Source: an uncultured Victivallales bacterium (GTDB lineage Bacteria; Verrucomicrobiota; Lentisphaeria; Victivallales; UBA1829). From it: a stretch of DNA of 64,000 nt. How positions within the stretch are numbered: position 1 is the stretch's first letter; the number at the start of each line of letters is the position of its first letter. A program made the translations under genes and the position numbers. Shown one piece after another: positions 194-48,007 of the stretch. Under the pieces are notes generated by a model, which worked only from the letters and a program-made list of their open reading frames with translations, had not been told where the DNA came from and made no database searches. Location: NCBI GenBank assembly GCA_944390795.1, contig CALXRI010000014.1, forward strand, positions 1-64,000, in the 5' to 3' direction.

Positions 194-874
194 TCACTGA
201 TCCGTATTTTTTTGAGATTTTTTCTCAAGAAGCCTTTTGCGCTGTTCCTCCCGTTCCTTTTTGACGCGTTCGTTGTATTCGCTTCTGCGGCGCCGGATGT
301 TCGCGTTCCGGATTTTCACCAGCTGTTCTGCGGAAAGTCTCGGTTTTCTTTTCTTCAGGAATGCCAGACACGCCGCCTGCTGTTTTTTGAAGGCCTCCAG
401 AGCGGCGGCATATTTCGTCTGATTCTTGTTTCGGTAAGCTTCACTGAATTGCGCGGCAACCGGCTTGAATCCGTTCAGCATGGTTTCAAACGACTTGTAC
501 CAGCGCATCGGAACTCTGGATACTTCCTCCAGATCCGGATTTGCGATCAGAACCTTGTAGGGGAAAAGATATTGTCCCGCATATTGTTCCGTAAACAATG
601 TGGAGGCATCCTTCATGTCTTCCACTTTTTCCGGGAGTTTTTTCTGGAGCAGCTGCTTCAGTATTTTATTGTCCAGAATATTCGAAACATGCTTCGTATC
701 GATGGACGGTTTTCTCGGGTCGAAGCGCAGGCGCGCCATTTCGTCCGTTCTTGTTTTTGCCGCAGCAGCAGAGCGGTCCGTTTTTGTCCGGTCGGAATTC
801 TGGCTTGTCTGAGCGCAGAGGGTGCCGAGCGCGAGAAAGGCGGCGAGAAAGGCGGCAGGATATTTATTCCGCAT
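194..874 (-). CDS. Small secreted protein of unknown function, last gene of the pseudopilin cassette
   Basis: The 226-residue protein begins with a signal peptide (hydrophobic stretch AAFLAAFLALGTLCAQ) and is otherwise hydrophilic. The last 50 residues are an Arg/Lys/Glu-rich helix that looks like a coiled coil. I recognise no family. The start is supported by AGGAG 8-9 bases upstream. The first 11 bases overlap the end of the GspK-like gene, so translation is probably coupled and the product probably serves the same envelope apparatus. A periplasmic accessory factor for the pseudopilins is a guess from position only. Confidence 0.75.
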   Translation of the reverse strand: MRNKYPAAFLAAFLALGTLCAQTSQNSDRTKTDRSAAAAKTRTDEMARLRFDPRKPSIDTKHVSNILDNKILKQLLQKKLPEKVEDMKDASTLFTEQYAGQYLFPYKVLIANPDLEEVSRVPMRWYKSFETMLNGFKPVAAQFSEAYRNKNQTKYAAALEAFKKQQAACLAFLKKRKPRLSAEQLVKIRNANIRRRRSEYNERVKKEREEQRKRLLEKKSQKNTDQ

Positions 875-3800: not shown

Positions 3801-3902
3801 CGTCAGAAGTCCCAGAATGCCCAGGGTGAAGATCAGCGCAATGCCGCGCCGGGAATGCGAATGGTTTTTCCCCCGGATGATTTTGCTCAGCCTCATATTC
3901 AT
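864..3902 (-). CDS. Large GspK/Verru_Chthon cassette A-like minor pseudopilin
   Basis: The 1012-residue protein starts with a basic leader (HSRRG) and a hydrophobic helix, GIALIFTLGILGLLTVLALG, as in GspK/PilX minor pseudopilins, followed by the usual amphipathic helix. There is no Glu5, which is typical of GspK. At about 1000 residues it is far longer than GspK (about 330). It matches my memory of the large 'Verru_Chthon cassette protein A' of Verrucomicrobia, and GspI- and GspJ-like genes lie just upstream. A segment near residue 290 (DRNGNGKIDKEEYH) looks like an EF-hand/dockerin calcium loop. Start ATG 3902 has GAGG 7 bases upstream. A perfect 33-bp tandem repeat lies inside (2075-2140). 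Confidence 0.85.
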   Translation of the reverse strand: MNMRLSKIIRGKNHSHSRRGIALIFTLGILGLLTVLALGFASTAMINRKVAHNTANRTAAQLLAQSALERVRFALDKGISVDKIYSRSPSSPGTGTGHGSQYTVDYDWLWKLHTDSDGVNLYTFPDNYSASTKGLPAWQYVKGPNGEIIGRFAYVVKAEKGKLDPSVHFGEKIFPPKPDPDYETPDGPDGPSGKLLRKGKNEAEIDFVNYNSSDTDLQGWQGKMKTELAKERSTEDSGNREYLDKLGRFADIADLAKVLDVTAQTDKDKLNERFEFRSSPDPEAFWLDRNGNGKIDKEEYHHRFNLGARLPYTRGSDGAITASQWENITISDLLRDAKLYSETVVTSSETNANEPDTGGIPWLNNWKYASTTSTDWTSDRMKQQIAANIIQYCRQESSDTVTNLTGDTASDWIANTPEYAGVGRHPMLNEIGLVISVGATVTPKSETTTEKTWRCCYDITIGTGAELIDMFYLPTKKNIKLKALGKFSLEYNAAGTWKPWSTTDAITLESSFTGDTADTTMKWTNGYTAKDSFWFAAQTVESESFDLTAAAGTDVRALEGQLKVRNVTFELKKIILEYGDKPRDIAVFNTGEGEYPLQFNTGEGEYPLQLQYETSSFRFRKKNFFQSCQTDDPRVNHYATDWACPAITVLDADAAYTGYYTDEGGAGTAGRNSNVTCQNTSDTSDTDKQDLETKDNPAATSASDRLSTAYIRHAPMESLWELGTISRAEKWKTLNLTKTDTTNSKLGQANGGGGEYKDGDGAILDQVKLTSKIASYGKVNLNTDSHRVLHALFTNVKVGQHATYSDYNAGENYSLTSHDAITADCLPCKIASISTHTPLKTRAELLAAGQTHKDSNVQTLLGEISAKLLQPSSSAPATDAEREQLIGKVINLTKADATNEINVVILAQTIKDIGPESGTITVQKFWGKDSERYRRAGYRRSPRQTESNPQWTTLDNIPNAITNLGGDNILPISKTRGQYANGADQITGEAKLVVIMYKDNGIWRIRRYEYAE
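2075..2140. repeat. Perfect 33-bp tandem duplication inside the GspK-like gene
   Basis: Positions 2075-2107 and 2108-2140 are identical. The duplication is in frame and repeats 11 residues (FNTGEGEYPLQ twice in the protein). Because the copies are identical it is either very recent or a site of replication slippage. Confidence 0.95.
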
Positions 3903-28186: not shown

Positions 28187-30826
28187 TTATTTCCCATAAT
28201 ATGCATCAAGATACATCTGCTTGATCTCGGTAATCAGCGGATAGCGGGGGTTCGCCGTGGTGCACTGGTCGTCGAACGCCTTTTCGCTGAGGGTGTCGAT
28301 CACGGCGAGGAAATCCTTTTCCGGCACGCCGGCTTCCTTGATGGACTTCGGAATGCCGACTTTCGCCTTCAGATCCTCGATCGCGGCGATCAGTTTCTCG
28401 ACCTTTTCATCCGCCGTGGTTCCGCCGAGCTTGAGGTAATCGGCGATCTGCGCGTATCTCTCCTTCGCATGCGGATGGTCATACTGCGGGAAGGTGCCCT
28501 GCTTGACCGGTTTTTCCGTCGCGTTGTAGCGGATCACGTAGCTGATGAGCAGCGCGTTCGCCAGTCCGTGCGGGACGTGGAATTCGCCGCCGAGCTTGTG
28601 CGCCATGGAGTGGCAGACGCCGAGGAAGGCGTTGGCGAACGCCATGCCGGCCATCGCGGAGGCGTGGTGCATCTGCTCTCTTGCGCGAAGGTCGCGCGGA
28701 CCGTTGGAGTAGGCGATCGGCAGATACTTGAAGACGAGACGGGCCGCTTCCAGCGCGATGCCGTCGGTGAATTCCGTGGCGAGCACCGAGACGCGGGCTT
28801 CCAGAGCATGAACCAGCGCGTCGATCCCGGAATACGCCGTGAGGCGCGGCGGCATGCCCATGACAAGGCGGGTGTCGATGACCGCCATGCTCGGGGTCAG
28901 CTCATAGTCCGCCAGCGGATACTTGTTGCCGGTGGTCTCGTCGGTGATTACCGCGAACGGCGTCACTTCCGAACCGGTTCCGGAGGTGGTCGGAATGCAG
29001 ACGAGTTCCGCCTTGGCTCCGAGTTTCGGGAACTTGAAGATGCGCTTGCGGATGTCCATGAAACGCATGGCCATGTCCTCGAACTTGATTTCGGGATGCT
29101 CATACATCAGCCACATGATTTTCGCGGCGTCCATCGGGGATCCGCCGCCGATCGCGATGATGAGATCGGGCTTGAAGGTGTTCATGCGGTCCACGCCCTT
29201 TCTGGCGGTTCCGAGGGTCGGATCGGGCAGGACTTCCGCGAAGATGTCGGCCTGGATCCCCAGCGCCTCCAGATACTCCAGGGGTTCCTTGAGAACGCCG
29301 CTGTTGAAGAGGAAGCCGTCGGTCACGATGAACGCGCGCTTCTTGCCCTCGAGTTCCGTGAAGGCTTCCTTCATGCAGCCGTATTTGAAGAAGATTTTCG
29401 GGGGCACTCTGAACCAAAGCATGTTTTCTCTCCGCTGTGCAATAGATTTGATGTTGAGCAGGTGTTTCGGGCCGACGTTTCCGCTGACGGAGTTTTCACC
29501 CCAGGAGCCGCAGCCGAGCGTCAGGGAGGGCTCAAGCTTGAAGTTGAAGATGTCGCCGATCGCGCCCTGGCTGGACGGCATGTTGATCAGGGTGCGGCAG
29601 CTCTTCATCAGATGTCCGAACTTCTGGATGCGTTCGACATTGGTTTTTTTCGTGTAAAGCACGCTGGTGTGGCCGAGACCGCCGAAATTCAGGAGGGCGC
29701 GCGCATTCTCAAGCGCGGATTCGAAGTCCTTCGCCTTGTAGAGCGCCAGAACAGGGGAGAGCTTTTCGCGCGAGAACGGGTAATCCGGCCCCACTCCTTC
29801 TGTTTCCGCGATCAGCACCTTGGTGCGCTCGGGCACCTTGACGCCGGCCATCGCGGCGATTTTGCTGGCAGGCTGTCCGACGATTGCGGCATTGAGTCTG
29901 CCGTTGACAAAGATTGTCGCGCCGACCTTTTTGCTTTCCTCCGGTTTGAGAACGTAGGCGCCGCGCTTGACGAATTCGGCCTTGACCTCCTCATAGACCT
30001 CCTCGACCACCGTGACGGACTGTTCCGAAGCGCAGATCATGCCGTTGTCGAAAGTCTTGCTCTGGAGCACCGAGCTGACCGCCAGTTCAATATTGCAGGT
30101 TTCGTCCATGATGACAGGCGTATTGCCCGGTCCGACGCCCAGCGCCGGAATTCCGCTGGAATAGGCCGCCTTCACCATGCCCGGACCGCCTGTGGCGAGA
30201 ATCACGTTGACGTCGGGATGGCTCATCAGGCGCTGGCTCAGCGCCACGGTCGGTTCCTCGATCCAGCCGATGATGCCTTCTGGAGCGCCCGCCTTGACCG
30301 CCGCGTCCAGCACGAGCTTCGCAGCCGCGATCGTGCACTTCTTGGCACGCGGATGCGGGCTGAATATGATGCCGTTCCGGGTCTTGAGCGCAATCAGGGA
30401 TTTGAAGATCGCCGTCGAGGTCGGATTCGTCGTCGGAATGATTCCGGCGATCAGTCCGAGCGGTTCGGCCACGGTGTCCATGCCGAGCGCCTGATCGTGC
30501 TCCAGAATGCCGCAGGTTTTCATGTCGCGATATTTATGGTAGATGTATTCGGAGGCAAAATGATTTTTGATGACCTTGTCCTCGACCACGCCCATTCCGG
30601 TCTCCTCGACCGCCATCTTCGCCAGTTCAATCCGGGCGTTGTTCGCCGCCAGGGCGCCGGCGCGGAAGATCGCGTCAACCTGTTCCTGCGTGAATTCGGC
30701 AAATTTGCGCTGGGCTTCCTTCACGGTCTCGATGGTCTTGTCGAGCTCCGCAAGCTGCTGTGCTTCGAGTTCTTCCTTTGTCGGGGCCGGTTTTTCCGCT
30801 TTCACTGCTGCCTTGGTTTTTCTCAT
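28187..30826 (-). CDS. adhE: Bifunctional aldehyde/alcohol dehydrogenase AdhE
   Basis: The 879-residue protein has the normal AdhE length and fusion. The N-terminal CoA-acylating aldehyde dehydrogenase (about 40-450) has catalytic Cys in NGMICASEQS and ATGGPGMVKAAYSSG. The C-terminal iron alcohol dehydrogenase (about 480-870) has IAIGGGSPMDAAK, the iron-binding DALVHALEA and later GVCHSMAHKLGG. It reduces acetyl-CoA to ethanol and regenerates two NAD+, the main electron sink in fermentation. ATG 30826 has GGGAG 10 bases upstream. An extra Lys/Pro-rich N-terminal tail of about 20 residues precedes the domain. Two Rex-like sites upstream suggest NADH control. Confidence 0.95.
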   Translation of the reverse strand: MRKTKAAVKAEKPAPTKEELEAQQLAELDKTIETVKEAQRKFAEFTQEQVDAIFRAGALAANNARIELAKMAVEETGMGVVEDKVIKNHFASEYIYHKYRDMKTCGILEHDQALGMDTVAEPLGLIAGIIPTTNPTSTAIFKSLIALKTRNGIIFSPHPRAKKCTIAAAKLVLDAAVKAGAPEGIIGWIEEPTVALSQRLMSHPDVNVILATGGPGMVKAAYSSGIPALGVGPGNTPVIMDETCNIELAVSSVLQSKTFDNGMICASEQSVTVVEEVYEEVKAEFVKRGAYVLKPEESKKVGATIFVNGRLNAAIVGQPASKIAAMAGVKVPERTKVLIAETEGVGPDYPFSREKLSPVLALYKAKDFESALENARALLNFGGLGHTSVLYTKKTNVERIQKFGHLMKSCRTLINMPSSQGAIGDIFNFKLEPSLTLGCGSWGENSVSGNVGPKHLLNIKSIAQRRENMLWFRVPPKIFFKYGCMKEAFTELEGKKRAFIVTDGFLFNSGVLKEPLEYLEALGIQADIFAEVLPDPTLGTARKGVDRMNTFKPDLIIAIGGGSPMDAAKIMWLMYEHPEIKFEDMAMRFMDIRKRIFKFPKLGAKAELVCIPTTSGTGSEVTPFAVITDETTGNKYPLADYELTPSMAVIDTRLVMGMPPRLTAYSGIDALVHALEARVSVLATEFTDGIALEAARLVFKYLPIAYSNGPRDLRAREQMHHASAMAGMAFANAFLGVCHSMAHKLGGEFHVPHGLANALLISYVIRYNATEKPVKQGTFPQYDHPHAKERYAQIADYLKLGGTTADEKVEKLIAAIEDLKAKVGIPKSIKEAGVPEKDFLAVIDTLSEKAFDDQCTTANPRYPLITEIKQMYLDAYYGK

Positions 30827-30948
30827 AAGTAAGCACTCCCTTCCATTTTTGAACCCTGTCTTCTCCGGACCTTCCGGAAAGGAAAGAGCTGTTTTTCCTT
30901 TTTTGTTCCATTTAAAATACAACGATTCAAAAAATTTTCAAGACAGTA

Positions 30949-31136: not shown

Positions 31137-33971
31137 TCAGCGTCTGATCTTCCTGTTGTACTCCAGTGCGTTGTTGAAGCGCGCAATCAGTTCCGCCGGA
31201 TTCCGCATGGCTGCATTGACGAGAACCATGCCTTTTCCGCAGGGGCGGGCGAGGATGTAGGGCTGCTCATTTCCCGCGCTGTCTTTCTGGCGCGCGAGAA
31301 CTTCCCATTTTTCAGGCATGGCGGGCAGCAGGACCAGCGGCGGCGTGTATCCGAGCATTTTCCGGAGATTGTCCGGGTAGTCCGCAAAAGAGGCGGGGGC
31401 GATGTACGTTGTTCTGCGGAGCTTGTCGCATCCGCTCGACCAGCCGACCTTGAAGGACGGGTCTTTGAAATACTTCTCATACTCGCAGGGACCGTACTGA
31501 TGGCAGATCAGAGTCGCGCCGTTCCTGACGCGTTCCAGAATCTGTTTTTCAAAGAACGCCGGATCCAGGCGGTTCTCATGTGTGGACCACACGATCAGGC
31601 GGCTTCCCGAGGTGTCCGCGTCCGGGTGTTCCCTGTGTCGGACAATCCGGTAGTTCCAGCCGTTTTTGTACAACGGTTCCAGATAGGCTTCCATCGGTTC
31701 GCTGTCCTTGACGAACCATGTCAGACGCCGGTCCGGAAACGGCTGATTGCTGAAATAGAGCAGTGCGCCGCTTCCGAGATCGTGATATGCTGGCTGGGGA
31801 TAGCCGCTGGACTGCGGTTTTGTGTTGCGATCCAGCACAAGACGCCAGAAGGATCCCGTTTCCGGAACGCTTCCGAGCGAGGCGAAAGGCAGTGTCACCT
31901 CCGCGCTCCAGCTTCTGCCGTCCGGGGTGATGCGGGTATTCAGTTTCCATTCGGGATTCCAGTTCCTGTCCATGCCGCGGGCATCGTAAAAGCCGCCTGC
32001 CGGATTGAAGGCGAAATGACGGTAGCTTTCGCCGTCGCAGGTGTCGAGAAAGATTTCAATGTTCTCTTCCATGAATACATCCTGGTCTCTTCCCGGGAAT
32101 CCGCGCCGGAGCGTCTTTTCCTCCGCCGGACAGTCGAAGAGGAGATGCAGGGCATCCCTGGTGTGATAGATCCGCGCCGTTGTCCTGCGTTTTTCCCCTT
32201 TTGCCGTTTGAAAGGGAAGTGTCAGGGCGTCGTCAAAGCTTTTCCCCATCGGCACCGCGCAGCTGACCGCTTTCCCTGCGGCGAAATCATAAGCCTTCTT
32301 CCAGCTTTCGAAATGCGCGCGGTCAATCGCGATTTCCGTTTCGATCCTTTTGCGCGCGCTGTCCTCCCGCATGGCGGCGAGCGTCTTTTGCGCCGCATGG
32401 AACTTTGCCTGTGCCAGTTTGATCAGGGCGGGGTTCAGGAGGAATCGCGCAGTGCCCGCGGAGTCATTGTGAAAATAGGTCAGATGAACCGGCATCTTTT
32501 CCCATGCGTCCGCCATGGCCCTGAAGTAGTCCAGCATCGGCTGCGCCGCGGGGCCGTAGACGGTCCGGCAGAAATCCGCCAGCAGTTCATCCGGACTGGC
32601 GTCGGGATTCCAGAGCATCTGGGAGTAGATGTAATAATTGATCCGCTGTTTCTGCTGGAAAAGATCCTTGCGCGCCCTGGCGGAGGGATTTTCAATCCAC
32701 GCCTCGGTCATGATGTGGCGGATATTGTGCTTTGCAAAATATTTCGCCTCGTCGGCAAGCACGTTCCAGAACGGGACAAAGGCGGCGCTTTTTCCCGTGT
32801 AAATGTCGAATTCATAACCGTAGATGCCCATGCCGGCGCGCGTCTGCCATTTCCGCAGGGCCTCGAGAGAGCGTGCATTCAGTTTGCAGGCGGGATCGCC
32901 GAAGCGGTGCACATAGCAGCGGTCATACTGACAGTACTCCACATACTCCAGGAATGGGACCTCCTTTTCCGGAGCCGGACGGTACTCCTGGTAGGCGATT
33001 CCTGCGAATTTCAGACCGGGGAGCTTTTTTTTCACCCCGTCTACCAGAATCCGGTAGAGATCGAACCACCGGCCGGATTTGTCCGGATTCGCCGTGCACG
33101 CGGGACACGAGCAGCGCAGCGTGGAATCCGCCGGATAGGCGTTCATGATGTCGAGTCGGTTTTCCTTCGCAATTGCGGCGAGTTTCTCGATCATGAGTCT
33201 CTGGAATTCCGGATTGCTCCAGCATCCTCCTTCTCCGTGGAGAATGCGCTTTCCGCCATACAGCGCGAAAATTTCCGGCTTGCTCTGAAAGAGTTTCGGA
33301 TCCGGGAAGACCCAGTGATTGCGCTGCAGAACGATCGAGCCTGTTTTTTCCTGCAGCGCGGGAGTGCGCGCCGCGGCGTTGTTGAAGTTGCGTACGAGAA
33401 AGAGTTCGTGTTCCTCCAGTCTTCCCAGACCGCACGGATTCAGCTCGCGCAGCGTCAGAACCGGCCTGTGATGGAGCGCGAGATCTCCCGGAATGACGTA
33501 GGTGGTGCGTTCCGGCATGAATTCACCGCTTTCACCGCCCCAGAGCCAGCGGACGCCCAGCTCCTTCTGAAGAAAATGGTAAACCGCAAAAAGCGCGGCG
33601 CGCGGATTGTTGCCGGCGAGATAGAGATTGCCGCTGCGGCGCCGGACGGCGATCACCTCGCCGAGGTCTTTGCGTTCGGACAATTTGAGTTCTCCGGCAA
33701 TTTTTCCGATCGCGGGCGCCTTCATCGAACCGATCACCAGGGCTCCGGATTCCGGCGGGACGTCGCTCCGGAGAATCGGAAGACGCGCTCCGGAGATTTT
33801 CCATACCGCGCGCTGGAGTTCTTCGGCCGCATACGCTTCCGTCTTTCCTCCCCTTGCCGGAATGATGATTTTCCAGATGCTTTTTCCGTTCTCAAAAAGC
33901 GGCGTTTCCTTTGCGCCGGTGTCGACTGCCGCCAGAAGGCCGAGCAGAAGTAGAAAAATCTGTTTTCCCAT
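31137..33971 (-). CDS. Secreted DUF4838 protein with CBM9-like and ThuA-like C-terminal domains
   Basis: The 944-residue protein has a signal peptide (IFLLLLGLLAAVDTGAK). Then comes a glycosidase-associated N-terminal domain (about 25-150: AAEELQRAVWKISGARLPIL), a DUF4838 TIM-barrel-like region (about 190-500, LGVRWLWGG before it), a CBM9-like beta-sandwich (about 590-770: EENIEIFLDTC, WSAEVTLPFASLG) and a C-terminal domain with ARPCGKGMVLVNAAMRNPAE. DUF4838 proteins lie in glycan-use loci and are thought to act on glycans, but the reaction is not established. It is divergent from the GntR gene, and its C-terminal domain recurs as the free protein at 36214. Promoter at 34053-34080. Confidence 0.88.
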   Translation of the reverse strand: MGKQIFLLLLGLLAAVDTGAKETPLFENGKSIWKIIIPARGGKTEAYAAEELQRAVWKISGARLPILRSDVPPESGALVIGSMKAPAIGKIAGELKLSERKDLGEVIAVRRRSGNLYLAGNNPRAALFAVYHFLQKELGVRWLWGGESGEFMPERTTYVIPGDLALHHRPVLTLRELNPCGLGRLEEHELFLVRNFNNAAARTPALQEKTGSIVLQRNHWVFPDPKLFQSKPEIFALYGGKRILHGEGGCWSNPEFQRLMIEKLAAIAKENRLDIMNAYPADSTLRCSCPACTANPDKSGRWFDLYRILVDGVKKKLPGLKFAGIAYQEYRPAPEKEVPFLEYVEYCQYDRCYVHRFGDPACKLNARSLEALRKWQTRAGMGIYGYEFDIYTGKSAAFVPFWNVLADEAKYFAKHNIRHIMTEAWIENPSARARKDLFQQKQRINYYIYSQMLWNPDASPDELLADFCRTVYGPAAQPMLDYFRAMADAWEKMPVHLTYFHNDSAGTARFLLNPALIKLAQAKFHAAQKTLAAMREDSARKRIETEIAIDRAHFESWKKAYDFAAGKAVSCAVPMGKSFDDALTLPFQTAKGEKRRTTARIYHTRDALHLLFDCPAEEKTLRRGFPGRDQDVFMEENIEIFLDTCDGESYRHFAFNPAGGFYDARGMDRNWNPEWKLNTRITPDGRSWSAEVTLPFASLGSVPETGSFWRLVLDRNTKPQSSGYPQPAYHDLGSGALLYFSNQPFPDRRLTWFVKDSEPMEAYLEPLYKNGWNYRIVRHREHPDADTSGSRLIVWSTHENRLDPAFFEKQILERVRNGATLICHQYGPCEYEKYFKDPSFKVGWSSGCDKLRRTTYIAPASFADYPDNLRKMLGYTPPLVLLPAMPEKWEVLARQKDSAGNEQPYILARPCGKGMVLVNAAMRNPAELIARFNNALEYNRKIRR

Positions 33972-35404: not shown

Positions 35405-36097
35405 ATGCGTGTCTGCCGTGGAAAACAATTCACATTGATCGAACTTCTCGTTGTAATATCCATTCTTGCGCTTCTGACTGCGATGCTTCTACCGTCACTT
35501 CATCGTGCGCGGGAGACCGCGCGCAGAATCCAGTGTGTCGGCAATCTCCGGCAGGTCGGCTCCGCACTTCTTTTGTATGCGGGGGATTACCGGGAAAATC
35601 TCCCCTTGAATTCCCATTGGCGCCTGGTTCAGGAGATCTACGGCGATTATCGGTATCACATGACTTCCCAGGCCCGTCTGAACCATTACCTCAACCCGCG
35701 GGAAAGAACCGGCTACAAGACGAAAACAAGAGTCTTTTTCTGTCCGAAAACCGTTCAGGCGGAGGCGGGCACAAGCGCATGGAACGACATCAGCTACGGC
35801 ATCTATTTTCTCTGGATCGGGGGAAGGCTGGCAATTCCGGAGAACGAGATCTCCCCGAAGGGAATGCACCTGAAGGGATTTCCTTTCCCTTCCCGGACGC
35901 TTTCGCTGGGGGACTGCCGCAACGCCGCCAGTTCCAACGAGTTTCAGGGACATATGGAACTGCGCAAAAACGCGTATGCGCTCCGGCATGGAACCTGGAC
36001 GCCGCTGGCTTTCATGGACGGGCATGCGGAATCCCGCAACACGCTTCAGCTGAAGGCGACTTTGGATTCCGACATCCTTTACAAATACAATGACTGA
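35405..36097 (+). CDS. Prepilin-type protein with H-x9-DG-like end, GntR cassette
   Basis: The 230-residue protein has a prepilin leader and helix ([20 protein letters not shown], Glu at +5; residues 8-28), followed by [20 protein letters not shown] and the H-x9-DG motif near the end ([16 protein letters not shown]). In Planctomycetes, Verrucomicrobia and Lentisphaerae this architecture is common but its job is unknown. GGAGG lies upstream of the ATG. It sits between the GntR regulator and a secreted ThuA-like protein, so it is probably controlled with them. Confidence 0.87.
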
Positions 36098-37305: not shown

Positions 37306-38340
37306 ATGGAAAAAGGCTGCAACATACGCGATGTGGCCCGGAAGGCGGGGGTTTCTCCCGGCACGGTGTCACGTGTGCTCAACAACCGGATGGGCAGAAT
37401 GCAGGTGTCCGAGGCGACGAGGGCCCTGATCCTCCGCTGCGCGAAGGAGCTTGACTATCAGCCGAACATCAATGCGCGGCGTCTTTTTTCCAGGCAGAGC
37501 CGGGTCATCGGTCTTGTCATTCCCTCCATCCGCGAGATTCACGGGAATATCTTCGCCGACCGGCATATCATGGATCTTCTCTGCGGAATCGAACAGGTTC
37601 TGGCGCTTCAGAAATACAGGCTTCTTCTGCTTTTCAAGGATCAGGAATTCATGGAATCCGGGGAGTATCTTTCCTTATACAGGGAAAAGCAGATTGACGG
37701 TCTTCTGATCTGGGGTTCCCACAGAAGCGAGAGTTTCTGGCGGGAACTGGAGAAAAGAAACTATCCGCATGTGTTCATCACGACCTATCCGGACGGCCTG
37801 GCGGAAAAGTCGCATGTGTATTCCGCGGACTATGCCTCCGCGGCATGCGATGTCATGCGCTATCTGCTGAAGAAAAAGCACCGGCGCATTCTCTGGGCAA
37901 AGCCGGAGCCGGATTCCTCTCTCTGTTTTGATCTGACGGAAGGATTCAAGCGGGCTTTTCAGGAAACGGAATGCTCGATGAGGAAAGTGGTTTCCGAGGT
38001 TGTGTGCGGGTATTCTCCCGAAGACGGATACAGTCTGATGGAGGAGCTGGGAGAAGACAGGACCAGGTATTCGGCAATTCTTTTTTCCAGCTGCAATTCG
38101 GCATTGGGCGCGCTGGACTACTGCACGAGATTCGGGATCCGCGTGCCGGTGGAAACGGCCATTGCGGCTTGCGACAACAACGATACGGGAAATGTCCGTG
38201 CGAAGATCACCTGTTCCTGCTGTGACGACATCCGCCTTGGCATGCTTGCTGCGGAAGCCCTGATTGCCGGAATCGAAGGGAAAGCGCTTCCCGGCAATCG
38301 GAAAGTGAAAACTGTCTTTCTGAGGGGAGACACCGCATGA
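37306..38340 (+). CDS. LacI-family regulator at the head of the large glycan operon
   Basis: The 344-residue protein has a LacI helix-turn-helix (NIRDVARKAGVSPGTVSRVL; about 5-25), a hinge and a sugar-binding domain (about 60-340: VIGLVIPSIREI..., IAACDNNDTGNVRA). Its length is normal. It should sense a sugar from the substrate handled by the downstream operon and bind the palindrome in its own promoter. About 26 bases separate the start site from the ATG. Confidence 0.9.
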   Translation: MEKGCNIRDVARKAGVSPGTVSRVLNNRMGRMQVSEATRALILRCAKELDYQPNINARRLFSRQSRVIGLVIPSIREIHGNIFADRHIMDLLCGIEQVLALQKYRLLLLFKDQEFMESGEYLSLYREKQIDGLLIWGSHRSESFWRELEKRNYPHVFITTYPDGLAEKSHVYSADYASAACDVMRYLLKKKHRRILWAKPEPDSSLCFDLTEGFKRAFQETECSMRKVVSEVVCGYSPEDGYSLMEELGEDRTRYSAILFSSCNSALGALDYCTRFGIRVPVETAIAACDNNDTGNVRAKITCSCCDDIRLGMLAAEALIAGIEGKALPGNRKVKTVFLRGDTA

Positions 38341-38566: not shown

Positions 38567-39175
38567 ATGAAATGGTGGAAACTGACTGCGGCGGCCTTGT
38601 GCGGCGTGGCGGCATTCTGCGGAACGGCACAGGAATTCAAAACGGACTTTGCCTCCGGCGGCAGTGTTCCGGGTATGACTCTGAACCGGCGTGCGGGCAT
38701 TGAGGGCGGCGTCCTGAAAGTCGGCAACTGGGGGGAGGCGGCCTTTACGCTTCAGACGAAGAATCCGCTGCGGATCTCGTTCCGCGCAAGATGCGTGAAG
38801 CGTCATCCCGGGAAACAGCCCTCGGCATGGATCGTCAGTCTGCAGGGGGCAGACAATGAAAGCGGAATGTTCCGTTTCCGGGAGGACAGCTGCCTGGAGT
38901 CCTACTTCTACAAGAACAGCCAGCGCAGGGGCGGACTCATTAAGAAGATCCGCAATCCGGAAGACGGCGCCTGGTTTCCCGTCTGCATCACCATCTCGGG
39001 AGACGTGCTTTCTGTGAAGCTGAACGGAACGGAGCTGGGAAGCGCGAAACATCCGGGATTTCTCTCTCTCCGGAAACTTTCTTTTTCCTCCTATAATGTG
39101 GAATGGGAGGTCGATGACCTTTCTGTCGCGCCCGTTTCGGCGGAGCCGGAGCGGACGAAGGAGAAAAAAGAATGA
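38567..39175 (+). CDS. Secreted beta-sandwich protein, copy of the next gene's N-terminal domain
   Basis: The 202-residue protein has a signal peptide (AAALCGVAAFCGTAQ) and one domain. It repeats residues about 20-185 of the 1428-residue protein that follows, with 89 identical bases (38667-38755 against 39263-39351) and 49 more (38929-38977 against 39525-39573). The shared motif RRAGIEGGVLKVGNWGEAAF is typical of a beta-jelly-roll carbohydrate-binding or LamG-like module; I cannot name the family. Its last bases overlap the next ATG (ATGA). It could be a free binding subunit. Confidence 0.75.
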   Translation: MKWWKLTAAALCGVAAFCGTAQEFKTDFASGGSVPGMTLNRRAGIEGGVLKVGNWGEAAFTLQTKNPLRISFRARCVKRHPGKQPSAWIVSLQGADNESGMFRFREDSCLESYFYKNSQRRGGLIKKIRNPEDGAWFPVCITISGDVLSVKLNGTELGSAKHPGFLSLRKLSFSSYNVEWEVDDLSVAPVSAEPERTKEKKE

Positions 39176-42100
39176 AAAAACCCTTTTCAGCACTTGTGAT
39201 CGTTTCCCTTGCTTTGTCCGCTGCCGCGGGAGACTTCAAAACAGACTTTTCCCGGGGCGATATTCCGGGTATGACTCTGAACCGGCGTGCGGGCATTGAG
39301 GGCGGCGTCCTGAAAGTCGGCAACTGGGGGGAGGCGGCCTTTACGCTTCAGGCGGAGAATCCGCTTCAAATCTCTTTTCGCGTCAGATGCGTGAAACGCC
39401 ATTCCGGGAAACAGCCTTCGGCTTGGAACGTCAAACTTCAGGGAGCGGACCATGAAAGCGGGCTGTTCCGTTTCCGGGAGGACGACTGCCTGGAGTCCTA
39501 TTTCTACAAGAACAACCAGCGCAAGGGCGGACTCATTAAGAAGATCCGCAATCCGGAAGACGGCGCCTGGTTTCAGGTTTCCATTTCCATCTTCAGGAAC
39601 TCGCTTTCCGTGAAACTGAACGAAACGGAGCTGGGGAATGCGAAACATCCGGGCTTTCTGCCTCTTCTGAACCTGTCCTTCTCCTCCTATAATGTGGAAT
39701 ATGAAATCGACGATCTCTCGGTTTCCGCGCTTCCGCAGGAAAAGCCGGTGACAATTGAAAATCCGACTTTCTCTCTTGACTTCAATGACGGAACAGCGGA
39801 TGCCGTCACCGACAAGGGCATGCGGATTCCGCCCGCGGAGGCTGCCGGGATTCATTTCGTTCCGGGCATCGACGGGAAGGGGATTTCGCTGGATCCCGGC
39901 ACGGGAAGCAGACTCTCCTATCCTCTGGACGGGATTTTCAGCAGCAAAATCGGCGGGCTCATGTTCTGGGTCCGCATGAACAGGAAGCTGGGGGCGCAGA
40001 TCTTTGCTCTTACGGACGGCAGGGAATCCAAAATGACCGTTCAGCAGAATGGAGACCGCCGCACCGTCATCATGGTCCGGCGGAAGGACACCGAACAGCA
40101 GCTCGGCTACATCCGTACCATCCCAGGAGCCATCGGGGACTGGGTCCTGGTCGCACTGACCTGGGACGAGGACTCCAATGCGAAGTATTTCATCAATACG
40201 CTTCCTTATGTCGTGTGCTTCAATCCCGGTCAGAGAATGCCGGATTTCATCAATGCCGATCTCGACCAGGTGAAAAGCCTGAAGTTTCTTTCCAATCCGA
40301 AAGCGTCTTTCACGATCGACCGTCTCCGCTTTTTCCACCGGACTCTGACCAACAGCGATGTCTATGACGAATACCGGCGCTTCATGCCGTTCGACATGGT
40401 GATGGAGCGGACAATCGTTCCAGCCGACACGCCGGTTTCCATTTCCGTGCAGATCGCTCCCGGTGGTTTCTACACGCGTCCGATGCCTGTGGAGCGCGAC
40501 CGCTTTCTGACGGGGAAGGGAACTTTTGAATTCATTCTCAGAGGGGGGCGCGGGAATGTGCTCCTCCAGGAAAAAAAGGAGATCGCCGTCGACAGACCCA
40601 TGGATGTCTCCCTGGGGGAGGTCCGGCTGCCAACGGGGAACTACACGCTGGAGTGCATCGTGAATCACGCATACAGGCGCACCTTCCAGGTGGACAGCTT
40701 CACATCCTCCTACAAGCCGGATCCGGCAAACCGGGAACTGAAAACGGGAAAACTGATCTTCTCGAAAAAATTCAATGATCCCGGGGATCCTTCCATCCTG
40801 AAGCAGGGAAAGCTCCGCCTGGCGGAGAACGGACAGTATCTGGAGGCGGGAAGCAACAAGACCGACCGTTTCAGCATTGAAATTCCTTTTGCGGAGGATC
40901 AGCTCGGGAAACCTGTCGCGCTTGACATCGTCTGGCCGGACGACAAGGCGCGCATGATGGGATGGTACATGTATCCCGGCGCATTCGGCGTCAACCGCGA
41001 CCGGCTGCAGAGCGGAGTTTCCGCCGGAAACGAACTGCCGAATTCCGGACGGATGCAGACGACGCGGCATATTTTCTATCCCGGGACCTCCACTTATCTT
41101 TTCGAGGCGCGGACGATGGCGCCCGGGATGCCTGCGGCCGTTTCGGAAATCAGAATTTACGAAATTGAAGGCGGTCTCCCGGCTCTTTCGATCCGGCGTC
41201 CGGGGAATCTGGCTCCGCGCAACTTCGGCTTCTATGACGAGGACCAGACTTTTCCCAACAATCTGAATGCGGATGTGCTCCAGCGGAAATCCCCCGCATA
41301 CGGGAAATTCCGCAGCCGGTATCCGAATGCGACAGTCTTCATCGCCGATCAGATCATGGAATATTTCGACTATACGGGGATGAACACGCTCCATGCCCCG
41401 CTCTGGCGCTATGATGTGAGCTATTTCCCCCTTGAGGGGCAGACAGCCGCCGGCATGTTTCCCGGCAGGGGGCTTGCCTATGTGTTCGATTTCTTCTCCA
41501 GGCGGAACAAGCGATTCGTCGCCATGATGAACTACGCCAACGTTCCCGACATCAAACAGTTGGAAAAGATAGAATCGGATTATCGCAGGGAGGGGCTGGA
41601 ATCCCTGGACCGTTACGGTGACAGCATCACGCAGTATCTGATGGGCGACCATCGGGCCAATATCTGCCATCCGAAAGTGCTCAAGCTGTTTGCCGGCTAT
41701 TTTGAGGAGCCGGTCAGACGTTATGCGAAGTCGGGTCTGGCGGGAATCGAATACTGGATCAGCAGCTTCGGAACCTGGGGATCCCTCGAGTGGGGATACG
41801 ACGATTACACCGTCAACAAATTCAGCCGCGAAACCGGAATCCGGGTGCCGGAAAAAATCCGGGACCGCTATCCCTTCCTCACCACGGAGAAACGGGCGCA
41901 ATGGCTGAAATGGCGCTCGGAACAGGTGACGAATCTTGTGAAAATGGTCCGCGGCGTTCTGGACCGCTGCAATCCGGAGCTCAAGCTTTATCTGGGCATC
42001 AATCAGGATCCCGACAATTACGTGAAATACGGTCTTGATCTGGAGGCTCTGAAGAAAATCCCGAACATTTCCTTTTCCGTTGTCCGCCATCCGACCGCAT

Positions 42101-43458
42101 ACCGTCACGGATTCCACTGGGGCAAACCGGAAAGCACCCGGAACGAGGAGCTCTACGATTTTCACAACAGGGACATTGCGAATTATTTCGTCAACGGCGC
42201 CGCAGGCGTCGTGATTTCCTACAACAGCTATTTTGAAACATTTGTACATCCGCTTGACCGGAAATACCAGTGTTATTTCGAGAATGCGGACATCAAGCCG
42301 CACGGGCGCTATTATCTCCGGGAGGCGGCGTTTGTCGTCGGGGCGTTCGACGCCCTGGAATATGTGGCAGGCGGACAGCCCCTTGCGACAATCGGACGCG
42401 AGGCGGAGGCTCGTGAATTCGCTCTCGCCTACGGCGCGCTTCCCGCGGAAAAATTCCATCCCGCCGGAGGCATTGACGATCCCGCGGTCGCACGTTACCT
42501 CCACACGGAAAACGGAACGTATTTCTATGTTGTCAACATGTTCCATGACAACGTGAAGGTTTCTCTCGACTTTGATGCGGATCTTCCTTTTGAAGATCTT
42601 TCCACCGGAGAAAAACTCCGCGGCGGAATCATTGCGCTGAAGCCCTTCCAGCTCCGTTCCTTCCTGTTCCCGAAGAGAAAAATCGCTGTGAAAAATCTCC
42701 GGCTTGCCGGTACGGAAAAGGAAAGCGCGACATTCTACCGGCGGCGGATCGACCGTCTCAAGGCCGCCGCGGCTCTTCTGGCGGACGGCGGAATCGATGT
42801 CGCGGCGGAAAGAAAGGATATCGCCCATCTGGAACGGATGCTTGCGGAACGGCGATTTGCGGAACTCTACCGCGTTTCCTTCAGCCGCCGGATGAATCAG
42901 CTTCTGAAAAAGCAGTCCGATCTTGCCAATCTCATCCGCCAGCAGAAACAGATCGACCGGGGATATTATGCCGTGAACTGCGGCTCCTCGGAATTTTACA
43001 ATGCGCCGGACGGCAGACTGTTTTTCCCGGATCAGAAATTCGACGGGAAATACGGATATGTCGGCGCCTGCAGCTCCATCACACGCGACATCACGGGTAT
43101 TTCCGGAACGGATCTTCCTGAACTTTACAGGACGGAAACCTACTTTCTGGAAGGCTACAAGTTCAAGGTGCCGAACGGAACTTATAAGATCATTTTCCAT
43201 CTGAAAGCCGGATTCCGGCCGAATTTCGAACCCGGGACCTATTCCTTCTCCGTTTCCGCGAACGGAAAGGCGGTTCTGGACCGGATTGATCTTTACAAAC
43301 TGGCCGGCGGAGATTTCCATCGCGCTTTGAAGCTGGAAACCGGCGACGTCCGCGTGGAGAACGGCGAACTGACGCTTCTGTGGAAGCACAATCCATCCAG
43401 ACGCGGGCAGAATGCTTCCGTCTGCCTGGCCAACGCCATTGAAATTCTGAAACAGTGA
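39172..43458 (+). CDS. Giant secreted multidomain protein, putative glycoside hydrolase
   Basis: The 1428-residue protein has a signal peptide (VIVSLALSAAAGD). Then come the duplicated beta-sandwich domain (about 20-185), a LamG-like domain (about 195-370: GIDGKGISLDPGTG, WVLVALTWDEDSNAKYFINT), beta-sandwich linkers (about 390-660), a large domain (about 690-1150) resembling a TIM-barrel glycosidase with several conserved Trp and acidic residues, and a C-terminal malectin-like domain (about 1260-1428: YYAVNCGSSEFYNAPDGRL, GTYKIIFHLKAGFRP). I could not assign a GH family, and the catalytic pair is not evident. It is part of the LacI operon; CBM9 and GH127 genes follow. Overlap of four bases with the preceding gene. 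Confidence 0.8.
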   Translation: MKKPFSALVIVSLALSAAAGDFKTDFSRGDIPGMTLNRRAGIEGGVLKVGNWGEAAFTLQAENPLQISFRVRCVKRHSGKQPSAWNVKLQGADHESGLFRFREDDCLESYFYKNNQRKGGLIKKIRNPEDGAWFQVSISIFRNSLSVKLNETELGNAKHPGFLPLLNLSFSSYNVEYEIDDLSVSALPQEKPVTIENPTFSLDFNDGTADAVTDKGMRIPPAEAAGIHFVPGIDGKGISLDPGTGSRLSYPLDGIFSSKIGGLMFWVRMNRKLGAQIFALTDGRESKMTVQQNGDRRTVIMVRRKDTEQQLGYIRTIPGAIGDWVLVALTWDEDSNAKYFINTLPYVVCFNPGQRMPDFINADLDQVKSLKFLSNPKASFTIDRLRFFHRTLTNSDVYDEYRRFMPFDMVMERTIVPADTPVSISVQIAPGGFYTRPMPVERDRFLTGKGTFEFILRGGRGNVLLQEKKEIAVDRPMDVSLGEVRLPTGNYTLECIVNHAYRRTFQVDSFTSSYKPDPANRELKTGKLIFSKKFNDPGDPSILKQGKLRLAENGQYLEAGSNKTDRFSIEIPFAEDQLGKPVALDIVWPDDKARMMGWYMYPGAFGVNRDRLQSGVSAGNELPNSGRMQTTRHIFYPGTSTYLFEARTMAPGMPAAVSEIRIYEIEGGLPALSIRRPGNLAPRNFGFYDEDQTFPNNLNADVLQRKSPAYGKFRSRYPNATVFIADQIMEYFDYTGMNTLHAPLWRYDVSYFPLEGQTAAGMFPGRGLAYVFDFFSRRNKRFVAMMNYANVPDIKQLEKIESDYRREGLESLDRYGDSITQYLMGDHRANICHPKVLKLFAGYFEEPVRRYAKSGLAGIEYWISSFGTWGSLEWGYDDYTVNKFSRETGIRVPEKIRDRYPFLTTEKRAQWLKWRSEQVTNLVKMVRGVLDRCNPELKLYLGINQDPDNYVKYGLDLEALKKIPNISFSVVRHPTAYRHGFHWGKPESTRNEELYDFHNRDIANYFVNGAAGVVISYNSYFETFVHPLDRKYQCYFENADIKPHGRYYLREAAFVVGAFDALEYVAGGQPLATIGREAEAREFALAYGALPAEKFHPAGGIDDPAVARYLHTENGTYFYVVNMFHDNVKVSLDFDADLPFEDLSTGEKLRGGIIALKPFQLRSFLFPKRKIAVKNLRLAGTEKESATFYRRRIDRLKAAAALLADGGIDVAAERKDIAHLERMLAERRFAELYRVSFSRRMNQLLKKQSDLANLIRQQKQIDRGYYAVNCGSSEFYNAPDGRLFFPDQKFDGKYGYVGACSSITRDITGISGTDLPELYRTETYFLEGYKFKVPNGTYKIIFHLKAGFRPNFEPGTYSFSVSANGKAVLDRIDLYKLAGGDFHRALKLETGDVRVENGELTLLWKHNPSRRGQNASVCLANAIEILKQ

Positions 43459-43468
43459 GGACGCAGTC

Positions 43469-44245
43469 ATGAAGAAAGGAATCGGAATTGCGGCCGGATG
43501 CGTGTCGCTCCTGCTTTTTTCCGCGTGTTCCCATCTCTCCCCCTCCGCAATGAGGGCGGAATACACGGATGCGGAACCTCCCGCGGATCTCTCCGGAGCC
43601 GCATGGCGCAATGCGCCGGAATACCGTTTCACGCCGTACAGCGCGGGACCGTGGTATCAGGAGATTGAACGCGTTTCCGGCATGCGGGGACGTGTTCTGG
43701 AGGGCGGCGCAGTCCGTCTGCTCTGGAATGAAAAATATCTTTACGTCGGCGTCCGGATGGAGGACAGCGACATCGTGGACGAGGCGGTCCGCGATCAGAC
43801 GCACATCTTCACGCAGGCGGATGCCGTCGAGCTGTTTCTCAAGCACGAGGCATATCCCTGCTACTGGGAAATCTACGGCAGCGCCGGAGGAAGGAAAACC
43901 TGTTATTTCTTTCCCGGACGCGGCCGTCTCGGCCTGCCAGGCAGCAGCAGATACCGTCACGGTGTAACCGTAAGGACTTCCCTTTGCGGAACGCTCAACA
44001 GTGAGAAGGACCGCGATCGCGGGTGGACGCTTCTGATCAAGGTGCCCGCCGCGGATCTCACTCGTCATGGCGCGGAATGGAAAGCGGGCGAAAAATGGAC
44101 CATTCATCTGGTCCGGCACAACTATTCGGTTTATCTGCCGAGCAGGGAAGTCAGCGTTTTTCCGGAATTTCATGCGGGCAATCCGCACTTCCATGAAGGA
44201 TATGCGCCGCTTGTTCTTGCAAAACGGGGAGAGAAGTTGAAATGA
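43469..44245 (+). CDS. CBM9-like lipoprotein
   Basis: The 258-residue protein has a lipobox (LLLFSAC|S, Cys about residue 20) and a CBM9-type beta-sandwich (about 30-240: AAWRNAPEYRF, LWNEKYLYVGVRMEDSDI, ADAVELFLKHEAY, GWTLLIKVPAADL). It would be anchored in the outer membrane and hold a sugar polymer or its end. It follows the giant protein by 10 bases and overlaps GH127 by four bases. Confidence 0.82.
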   Translation: MKKGIGIAAGCVSLLLFSACSHLSPSAMRAEYTDAEPPADLSGAAWRNAPEYRFTPYSAGPWYQEIERVSGMRGRVLEGGAVRLLWNEKYLYVGVRMEDSDIVDEAVRDQTHIFTQADAVELFLKHEAYPCYWEIYGSAGGRKTCYFFPGRGRLGLPGSSRYRHGVTVRTSLCGTLNSEKDRDRGWTLLIKVPAADLTRHGAEWKAGEKWTIHLVRHNYSVYLPSREVSVFPEFHAGNPHFHEGYAPLVLAKRGEKLK

Positions 44246-45990
44246 GGTGTTTTTACAATCTGCCGCCCCGCGCTGTCCGTCTTGAGGGACCTATGGGAAA
44301 GGCATTGCGTCTCACGGTTGAAAACCGCCTGAAAAAAGTGGACTATGCGCATCTTGTCGATCCTTTCCGGCGCCGCAGGGAGCGGGACGGACTTTGGCGC
44401 TGTGAATTCTGGGGGAAGATTGTGCGTTCCGCCATTCATGCATGGCGGGCGACCGGGGACCGTGAACTCCTTTCCATGATTCGGACTACGGTGGACGATC
44501 TGCTTTCCACACAGACGCCGGACGGATGCATCAGTTCCTATCCGGAAGAAAAACAGACTTCCGCCTGGGATGTCTGGGGGAGGAAATATGTCCTGCTGGC
44601 GCTGATCCGCTATTATGAGGAGGTTGATCCGGACAGGCGCGTGAAACAGGCGTGCACGGATCTGCTGGATCATCTGATGCGCCAGATCCCTTCCGGGGGG
44701 AAAATGAAGGAATACGGGGAGCATCAGGGACTTGCGTCGTCGTCCATCCTCGGCGCGGTTGTCGGCGTCTATCGCATTGCCGGAGAAGCGCGCCATCTGG
44801 AGTATGCCCGCGGAATCGCAGGCTCCGGATGTTCCCTGAAACACAATATTTTCCGCGCCGCAGCGGCAGGGGTTCCTCCCGCCGAAATCGGAAACGGGAA
44901 AGCCTATGAACTGACGTCATGTTTCCAGGGGCTCGCGGAGCTGTACCGCGCGGATCCGCATCCGGAATATCTTGCCGCGGCAATCCGTTACCGGGAACTG
45001 GTGCGGGATTATGAAATTTTCATTACCGGAGCCGGCGGTCTCAAGGACCTCGGCGGGGAATACTGGCATTACGGGAAATGGGGGCAGACACGGCACGATC
45101 CGGGCGTCATGCTCGGGGAAACCTGCATCACAACCACCTGGATCCGGTACAATGACCTGATTCTCCGTCTGACCGGCGACTGCGGCGCAGCCGGGGAGCT
45201 CGAACGTGTCTTCTACAACGCCGCCCTCGGCGAGATGACGCCGGATGCGGATTCCTGGATGCATGCGAATCCGACTCCGCTGGCGGGAAGCGCGTTCAAA
45301 CGCCCGGCGGATGACCAGATCACGGGGTTCGGGGAAGACTGCTGTCTGGCACAGGGGCCCGAGGCGATTGCCATGGCGCCGCTCTCCGCCGTCATGCGGA
45401 CGGACGACGGAATCGCGGTCAACTGCTATGAGGATCTGGAGGCGGACTTCACCACGCCCGGCGGGCAGTGCGCATCGCTCCGGATTTCAGGCGGCTATCC
45501 GTTTGCCGGAAGGGTAAAGCTTTCCCTTGCGCTTTCCCGTGCGGAAAACTGGACGCTCATGCTCCGGATTCCGGAGTGGTGGAGCGCCGGATCCTTTCTC
45601 CGGGTCAACGGATGCGGCATGACGCCGGAGCCGGGAAGATACCTCGCTTTGAAACGGGAATGGCGGACGGGCGATGAGATTGAAATCGAATTCGATCTTA
45701 CCGTGCGTGCCGTGCGGTCGCCGGACATCACCCGGATCGCATTCTGTTCCGGACCTCTTGTGCTTGCGCAGGATTCCCGCCTTTCCGATGTGGACGCTCC
45801 GGTATCCGGCGCTGCAGGGGGCGCGCGCATGCCGGAGTCGAGCCTGCCGGAGGGGATCAGCGCCGCCTGGGAACTTGCCGACGGCACGAGACTCTGCTGC
45901 TATGCCGAGGCCGGGAACTGTTTTTCGCGGGAAAACCCGTTTACCGTATGGTGCCCGCCGCGGCATCCGGATTTATTCAAAAAAAATTAG
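44242..45990 (+). CDS. GH127 glycoside hydrolase, putative beta-L-arabinofuranosidase
   Basis: The 582-residue protein has the (alpha/alpha)6-barrel features of GH127. The zinc-site segments are visible: GETCITTTWIRYND supplies Glu and Cys and GEDCCLAQGPEA supplies the Cys-Cys pair, one of which is the nucleophile. Early TQTPDGCISSYP and EYGEHQG also match. GH127 enzymes release beta-L-arabinofuranose or related sugars. No signal peptide is present, so it acts in the cytoplasm on imported oligosaccharides. It overlaps the CBM9 lipoprotein (ATGA). The following 166 bases are unassigned. Confidence 0.87.
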   Translation: MRCFYNLPPRAVRLEGPMGKALRLTVENRLKKVDYAHLVDPFRRRRERDGLWRCEFWGKIVRSAIHAWRATGDRELLSMIRTTVDDLLSTQTPDGCISSYPEEKQTSAWDVWGRKYVLLALIRYYEEVDPDRRVKQACTDLLDHLMRQIPSGGKMKEYGEHQGLASSSILGAVVGVYRIAGEARHLEYARGIAGSGCSLKHNIFRAAAAGVPPAEIGNGKAYELTSCFQGLAELYRADPHPEYLAAAIRYRELVRDYEIFITGAGGLKDLGGEYWHYGKWGQTRHDPGVMLGETCITTTWIRYNDLILRLTGDCGAAGELERVFYNAALGEMTPDADSWMHANPTPLAGSAFKRPADDQITGFGEDCCLAQGPEAIAMAPLSAVMRTDDGIAVNCYEDLEADFTTPGGQCASLRISGGYPFAGRVKLSLALSRAENWTLMLRIPEWWSAGSFLRVNGCGMTPEPGRYLALKREWRTGDEIEIEFDLTVRAVRSPDITRIAFCSGPLVLAQDSRLSDVDAPVSGAAGGARMPESSLPEGISAAWELADGTRLCCYAEAGNCFSRENPFTVWCPPRHPDLFKKN

Positions 45991-47149: not shown

Positions 47150-48007
47150 ATGGGTAGAACAGAAAAAAACATATGCAGGAGACCGCATGGAAGCAATTTC
47201 ACCCTGGTGGAGCTTCTCGTTGTAATTGCGGTCATCGCGATTCTGGCCGGCATGCTGCTGCCGGCCTTGAGCCGGGCGCGGGATGTGGCAAAACGCATCG
47301 GATGCAGCTCCATTCTGAAAAACTTTGGCGTATGGGACATGGCATATACGCAGGATTACAACGGATACGGCACTCCGTTCCAGACCGACAGCATGAACTG
47401 GAGCAGTTTCTACAATACCAATTACCTGAACAGAAAATCCGGCAATACCGCCTCCACCTGGCAGCAGAACAATTACATTGAGCTGAAGTTGCGCTGTCCC
47501 GCCACAAATCTGACGGTTGAAGGCGTTTTCGCCACTCATCCGGGGGATTACTGGAATTATATTGCGGCCGCGTTTCCCTACGGGAGAAATTCCTGTTACG
47601 GATACTGGTCCGCGACAGGGGGAGAGCGGCTTTGCATCCGGGTGGCCAGGATCAAGTATCCTTCCCGGCGGATCACCTTCGGGGATCGGATGGAGGGGAT
47701 CACTCCGCCGGGATCGGATCCGAGCGGATCCGGCGGACTGATCCGTGCGCTCTCGGTGGACCGTCCCGTCGGAGACCAGCATCACAAATCCACGCCGCTG
47801 GCTTTTCAGGATGGTCGTGTGGAGGCTGTGAATCCGTATCTGGTCAATCCCATCGGAACCCTGCCCGGGAGCGTGGACTCCTCCACCAACAAAACCGTCG
47901 TGCAGTTCACCAAGGGGAGCATCGGCAGCTCCTCGCCGGACATCAAATATCTCTGGGGGAGTAACGGCGCCTCCGTCGGCGGCGATTACCGGTATGACTA
48001 CCCGTGA
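47150..48007 (+). CDS. Prepilin-type protein with H-x9-DG motif, LacI operon
   Basis: The 285-residue protein has a prepilin helix ([20 protein letters not shown], Glu at +5; about 17-36) and the H-x9-DG motif ([17 protein letters not shown]). It is preceded by a rather long leader of 16 residues. GAGGAGG lies upstream. It is the pseudopilin of the LacI operon, between the isomerase and the HAD phosphatase, so it appears to be co-expressed with the glycan enzymes. Confidence 0.87.

Follow-up and report, generated by a model that had tools for sequence, protein, structure and literature searches.

The window, that is, the whole stretch of 64,000 nucleotides that was analysed, carries a gene for a very large protein, preceded by a LacI-type regulator and a short jelly-roll gene and followed by genes for a CBM9-like protein and a GH127 glycosidase (Table 1). 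A longer open reading frame overlaps it on the antisense strand (39187-43632, minus strand; 1481 aa). The plus-strand frame is favoured over this antisense ORF because of its homology: a closely related Victivallales MAG (L001) encodes the same protein, with 90% protein identity over residues 1 to 1428, and the genome itself contains two paralogues that align along the same plus-strand frame. The ORF that an earlier note on this DNA had picked out is thus genuine. Its product is apparently secreted, with a signal peptide that was read by eye. Elsewhere in the window, the codon score also marked minus-strand ORFs of about 910-1010 aa at 28187-30922, 31137-33971 and 864-3902, the last of which had no Pfam match at 1e-5; at the first two, the Pfam scan covered the opposite, plus-strand frames. 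Neither PADLOC nor a plasmid search found anything.

Table 1. Features of the barrel-protein gene and of its surroundings (positions in the window; residues of the 1428-aa protein).
Feature	Position	Strand	Basis
GntR/LacI-type regulator	34366		cluster member
Pseudopilin-like protein	35405-36097		N-terminal sequence motif
LacI-type sugar-responsive regulator	37306-38340	+	PF00356, E 1.4e-16
Free-standing copy of the N-terminal jelly roll	38567-39175	+	similarity to the giant protein
Barrel-protein gene	39172-43458	+	ATG start, 1428 aa
Signal peptide, residues 1-18	39172-39225	+	sequence by eye, cleavage site guessed
N-terminal ConA-like jelly-roll domain, about residues 19-193	39226-39750	+	AF2, VIA-align
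LamG domain, about residues 196-405	39757-40386	+	Pfam Laminin_G_3, AF2, VIA-align
Small beta (Ig-like) domain, about residues 406-511	40387-40704	+	AF2 strands
Beta-sandwich preceding the barrel, about residues 512-670	40705-41181	+	AF2, conservation (48 members)
(beta/alpha)8 barrel, about residues 683-1085	41218-42426	+	AF2, VIA-align, conservation
C-terminal beta domain of the barrel, about residues 1105-1178	42484-42705	+	AF2; weak sequence match, GH13
Helical bundle, about residues 1182-1262	42715-42957	+	AF2
Malectin domain, residues 1265-1405	42964-43386	+	Pfam PF11721
Lipoprotein-like CBM9-like protein, next gene	43469-44245	+	PF06452, E 1.9e-4, just under cut-off; lipobox by eye
GH127 glycosidase	44242-45990	+	PF07944, E 1.2e-21; PF20736, E 3.1e-15
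AP_endonuc_2	46172		cluster member
Pseudopilin-like protein	47150-48007		N-terminal sequence motif
HAD	48004		cluster member
ADP-ribosylglycohydrolase-like	48703		cluster member
Beta-helix	51136	opposite

The N-terminal part was modelled as two jelly rolls (AF2 pLDDT 78.5, pTM 0.61), and both of them (residues 19-190 and 195-405) matched ConA/LamG-like folds in VIA-align with Z of about 17-19, the first being paired with 1oq1_B (Z 18.4, rmsd 2.3 over 164) and the second, the LamG domain, with 5hp6 (Z 17.6, rmsd 2.7 over 190). Their profiles are weakly similar to each other (69.5% over 60 columns). The Pfam match of the window protein to Laminin_G_3 (PF13385, residues 264-397; E 8.4e-4) lies below the curated cut-off (19.9 vs 27.6 bits); four of the six full-length family members exceed that cut-off and a fifth is exactly at it. 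The LamG domain also matched lectin domains from clostridial toxins; these matches were set aside, as they reflect the shared jelly-roll fold and nothing more. At the other end of the protein, the malectin match is well defined (E 8.6e-14; 52.3 bits vs a cut-off of 23), and phmmer, run with the complete protein on the sequences of the PDB, returned malectin-type stretches and one chance match, and nothing else.

The ORF immediately upstream, whose product is secreted, overlaps the giant gene by 4 bases and resembles its first jelly roll closely, at 74% amino acid identity over 192 residues, with 86% nucleotide identity to the giant gene over 495 bases. Since each copy has its counterpart in L001, the duplication is probably older than the divergence of the two genomes. 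The LamG, malectin-like and duplicated sandwich domains that had been read from the letters alone were therefore all recovered, the duplicated sandwich corresponding to the two jelly rolls, with the upstream ORF as a further copy of the first.

For the central part, a profile (A1) was built from 36 members over residues 512-1265, and the AF2 model based on it (pLDDT 88, pTM 0.90) displays, in order, a beta-sandwich, a (beta/alpha)8 barrel, a small beta domain and a helical bundle. In VIA-align the top match of the barrel was PgaB (GH153; 4p7l, Z 17.0, rmsd 3.4 over 336), together with Cwp19 (GHL10; 5oq2_B, Z 16.6, rmsd 3.7 over 310) and, for the model, a GH42 enzyme (5e9a_A, Z 16.2, rmsd 4.0 over 389), these three being tied within 1 Z unit; GH164, GH35 and GH14 came next in the fold list (Z 12.9-14.0). 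VIA-align was preferred over Foldseek because the latter, run with the whole multidomain chain, placed GH31 and GH13 chains first with low TM-scores (0.20-0.36 by query length) and large rmsd.

At the sequence level, no Pfam or NCBIfam family was reached at its cut-off in the barrel region. GHL10 (PF02638), which includes E. coli DigH/YddW, was nevertheless matched by 23 of the 36 members at E<=0.01 (best E 6.2e-9), with the window protein scoring 19.1 bits against a curated cut-off of 27.9, and just one other Pfam family match was seen, in 1/36 members. The hhalign comparison of the family profile with GHL10 gave 94.2% (E 1.1e-7; 195 columns), covering only model residues 205-433, i.e. strands 2-5, while controls with reversed profiles and with a TIM barrel of the window that is no glycosidase gave 0.1-0.3%, the reversed-profile control for GHL10 itself being at 0.1%. 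The barrel is thus a real but distant relative of GHL10, outside its curated limits, with a kinship confined to part of the barrel. The profile comparison with GH42 was weak (62.3%, E 7e-5), and PF02449 (GH42) matched neither the window protein nor any of the 36 members. For PgaB we had a fold match and not membership: comparison with a GHL13/PgaB-like sequence gave 2.3%, the target being a single sequence and not a profile. The A1 profile also drew weak GH13 matches from the PDB (1sma, E 1.9e-5), which fell for the most part on the C-terminal beta domain of these chains and on a strand/helix piece. An assignment to GH13 was rejected, as no conserved counterpart of the GH13 triad was seen and the fold list favours PgaB, Cwp19 and GH42.

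These results partly support the TIM-barrel glycosidase proposed in the earlier note. The barrel, placed there at about residues 690-1150, is found in the model at 683-1085 with its beta domain extending to about 1178, and its closest folds are those of glycosidase-type barrels. The statement that no GH family could be assigned stands in so far as Pfam and NCBIfam hold no significant match; it is qualified by the distant homology to GHL10.

Residues 512-1265 form a coherent and widespread family that is unnamed in Pfam and NCBIfam, as judged from profile matches. A match was present in 18 of 61 genomes (the own genome and its relatives), and within the phylum the A1 profile was matched in 62/387 genomes at E<=1e-10, many of these matches being short and partial, and in 43/387 at E<=1e-50; with two candidates scored per genome, the number of homologues per genome is a lower bound. 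The two paralogues of the own genome, C14:71545-73020 (minus strand) and C11:49300-50757 (plus strand), are respectively 40% and 35% identical to the window protein in the barrel, and the latter adjoins GDSL and GH78 genes. A second family copy past the end of the window, L034:10736-15127 (the C14:71545 paralogue), has as neighbours an NPCBM protein and a regulator whose binding domain is of the LacI type. Other members carry fusions at their C-terminus, namely a GDSL esterase in L038:4384-8952 (E 6.8e-10) and CBM9 (PF06452-type) in L040 and L047, which suggests that such neighbours are functionally linked to the barrel family. Many ORFs of 1000-1500 aa in the relatives' genomes match GH42 weakly and partially, and further unnamed barrel families in these genomes are suggested. 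No publication on the barrel family was found in the literature searched, which is weak evidence given that subscription papers fall mostly outside its coverage.

Conservation was examined in 48 non-redundant members, the set to which 80 sequences of more than 550 aa were reduced when near-duplicates were removed. Seven residues proved invariant (48/48): P589, R683, E690, Y747, F884, R915 and P1091, of which R683, E690, Y747, F884 and R915 belong to the barrel and P589 lies in the beta-sandwich, where Y556, E558, D590 and R594 are near-invariant. According to the model and the alignment, E690 directly follows strand 1 and Y747 directly follows strand 2. Just past strand 7, the column of E1022 is Glu in 39/48 members; eight of the nine exceptions constitute a single clade (support 1.0) that has a Glu some residues further on (LDEVD, FDEVD, LNENI, YELD), matched by eye since the automatic column leaves these members unaligned, and the ninth (L014) reads NHEG. 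At the end of strand 4 (854-867), acidic residues occur in at most 8/48 members at any one position. The Glu/Asp pair that had been anticipated at the ends of strands 4 and 7 was therefore found by half and is not supported as a pair, the strand-7 Glu being conserved while strand 4 lacks a conserved acid and an invariant one follows strand 1. On these grounds E690 and E1022 are the likely catalytic pair, and they would face each other across the barrel.

Comparison with the nearest families brings out both the likeness and the departure. The barrel shares with GHL10 the fold, the homology over strands 2-5 and, in the profile alignment, a WRR motif that coincides with W914-R915. The published account of Cwp19 (PMC5765458) places D195/D196 at the end of strand 4 and a Gly at strand 7; the Asp pair has no counterpart in the barrel family, which has Glu in place of the Gly and, in addition, extra sandwich, beta and helical domains. 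Because the strand-7 Glu is conserved and the strand-4 acid missing here, with Cwp19 showing the opposite, the barrel family looks like a mirror image of GHL10 as far as the alignments indicate, having kept strand 7, lost strand 4 and acquired a new Glu at strand 1. Similarly, the catalytic Asp of Bordetella PgaB, given as D474 in PMC5933820, has no conserved counterpart at strand 4 of the barrel family. With GH42, the barrel and the following beta domain align, and a Glu near strand 7 (39/48 by column, 8 shifted) may correspond to the GH42 nucleophile, but the strand-4 Glu acid/base of GH42 is unconserved (acidic in at most 8/48, with Glu at 860 in the window protein). GH164, GH35 and GH14 share the TIM-barrel fold; the barrel has no Pfam match to them, and their strand-4 acid is likewise unconserved in the family.

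The gene setting was assessed from 41 family loci with 196 neighbouring genes, of which 7 were left out and 189 scanned, and from 173 control genes of the same genome set, of which 114 were scanned (at most six from the middle of each stretch, minus four of the longest). Counting the 25 commonest families per scan, and among the matches listed, (i) the LacI-type binding domain occurred in 14/189 neighbours vs 3/114 control genes, (ii) alpha-L-fucosidase in 7/189 vs at most 1/114, and (iii) DUF1559 proteins in 7/189 vs 2/114. The enrichment of LacI-type domains and fucosidases is modest and suggestive. Overall, the setting fits glycan degradation and leaves the substrate unnamed; the GH127 and GH78 neighbours give a hint of arabinose- or rhamnose-bearing glycans.

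We propose, with a probability of about 0.6, that the central part forms the catalytic unit in a family of secreted glycoside hydrolases, unclassified in Pfam and NCBIfam, which occurs in Lentisphaeria and other Verrucomicrobiota; the hydrolysis, the acting residues and the substrate are what we infer. The beta-sandwich would pack in front of the barrel, and the LamG, ConA-like and malectin modules, with CBM9 in relatives, would anchor the enzyme on its polysaccharide. The LacI-type regulator would probably induce the cluster in response to its sugar, and the adjacent GH127 may act on the same glycan, which might carry arabinose, rhamnose, fucose or the like as side sugars. The best candidates for the catalytic acids are E690, after strand 1, and E1022, past strand 7 where clan-A enzymes have their nucleophile, while Y747, R683 and R915 would shape the pocket. 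That the acid/base has actually moved, the strand-4 acid having been lost and the invariant strand-1 Glu working with the strand-7 Glu in a new glycosidase family, is a tentative suggestion, on which we would put distinctly less weight.

Several other readings have to be weighed against this proposal. The barrel might be a distant GHL10/GH42-like branch of clan A with the usual geometry, in which E1022 is the nucleophile and the acid/base near strand 4 is lineage-specific (E860 or D878). GH42 and GH35, both fold neighbours, use strands 4 and 7, the window protein does have Glu at 860, and the loop that follows strand 4 contains D878, which is Asp in 44/48 members (Asn in 3, Glu in 1). Most members however have V, S, F or T at position 860, and D878 begins a helix in the model, where it looks like a helix cap, and is replaced by Asn in those three members; we regard this arrangement as unlikely.

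The lack of a conserved acid at strand 4 and the numerous binding modules around the barrel could also be accounted for by a non-catalytic scaffold, a pseudo-enzyme that binds the glycan while its partner GH127 cuts. Yet E690, R683, Y747 and R915 are invariant in all 48 members and are accompanied by the strand-7 Glu, which would be unusual for a dead site and makes such a role improbable in our view. Finally, esterases are fused or adjacent to family members, and lyase sites frequently contain invariant Glu, Tyr and Arg as well, so that E690 and Y747 might be the base and acid of another chemistry, either polysaccharide lyase elimination or ester hydrolysis; the fold list is headed by hydrolase-type TIM barrels, and we give this reading very little credence.

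We rate the barrel family as widespread, unnamed and glycosidase-like, with an unusual predicted active site. Lentisphaeria and related bacteria encode family proteins of 1000-1800 residues, with at least three in some genomes, whose core has no name in sequence libraries. If this core is an active glycosidase, it would add one more family to glycan breakdown. The question of E690 and E1022 bears on whether a clan-A-like barrel can swap its strand-4 acid for a strand-1 acid; if true, the strand-1/strand-7 pair would mean that catalytic residues have migrated inside a single superfamily, and GHL10, which kept strand 4 and lost strand 7, would be the mirror case.
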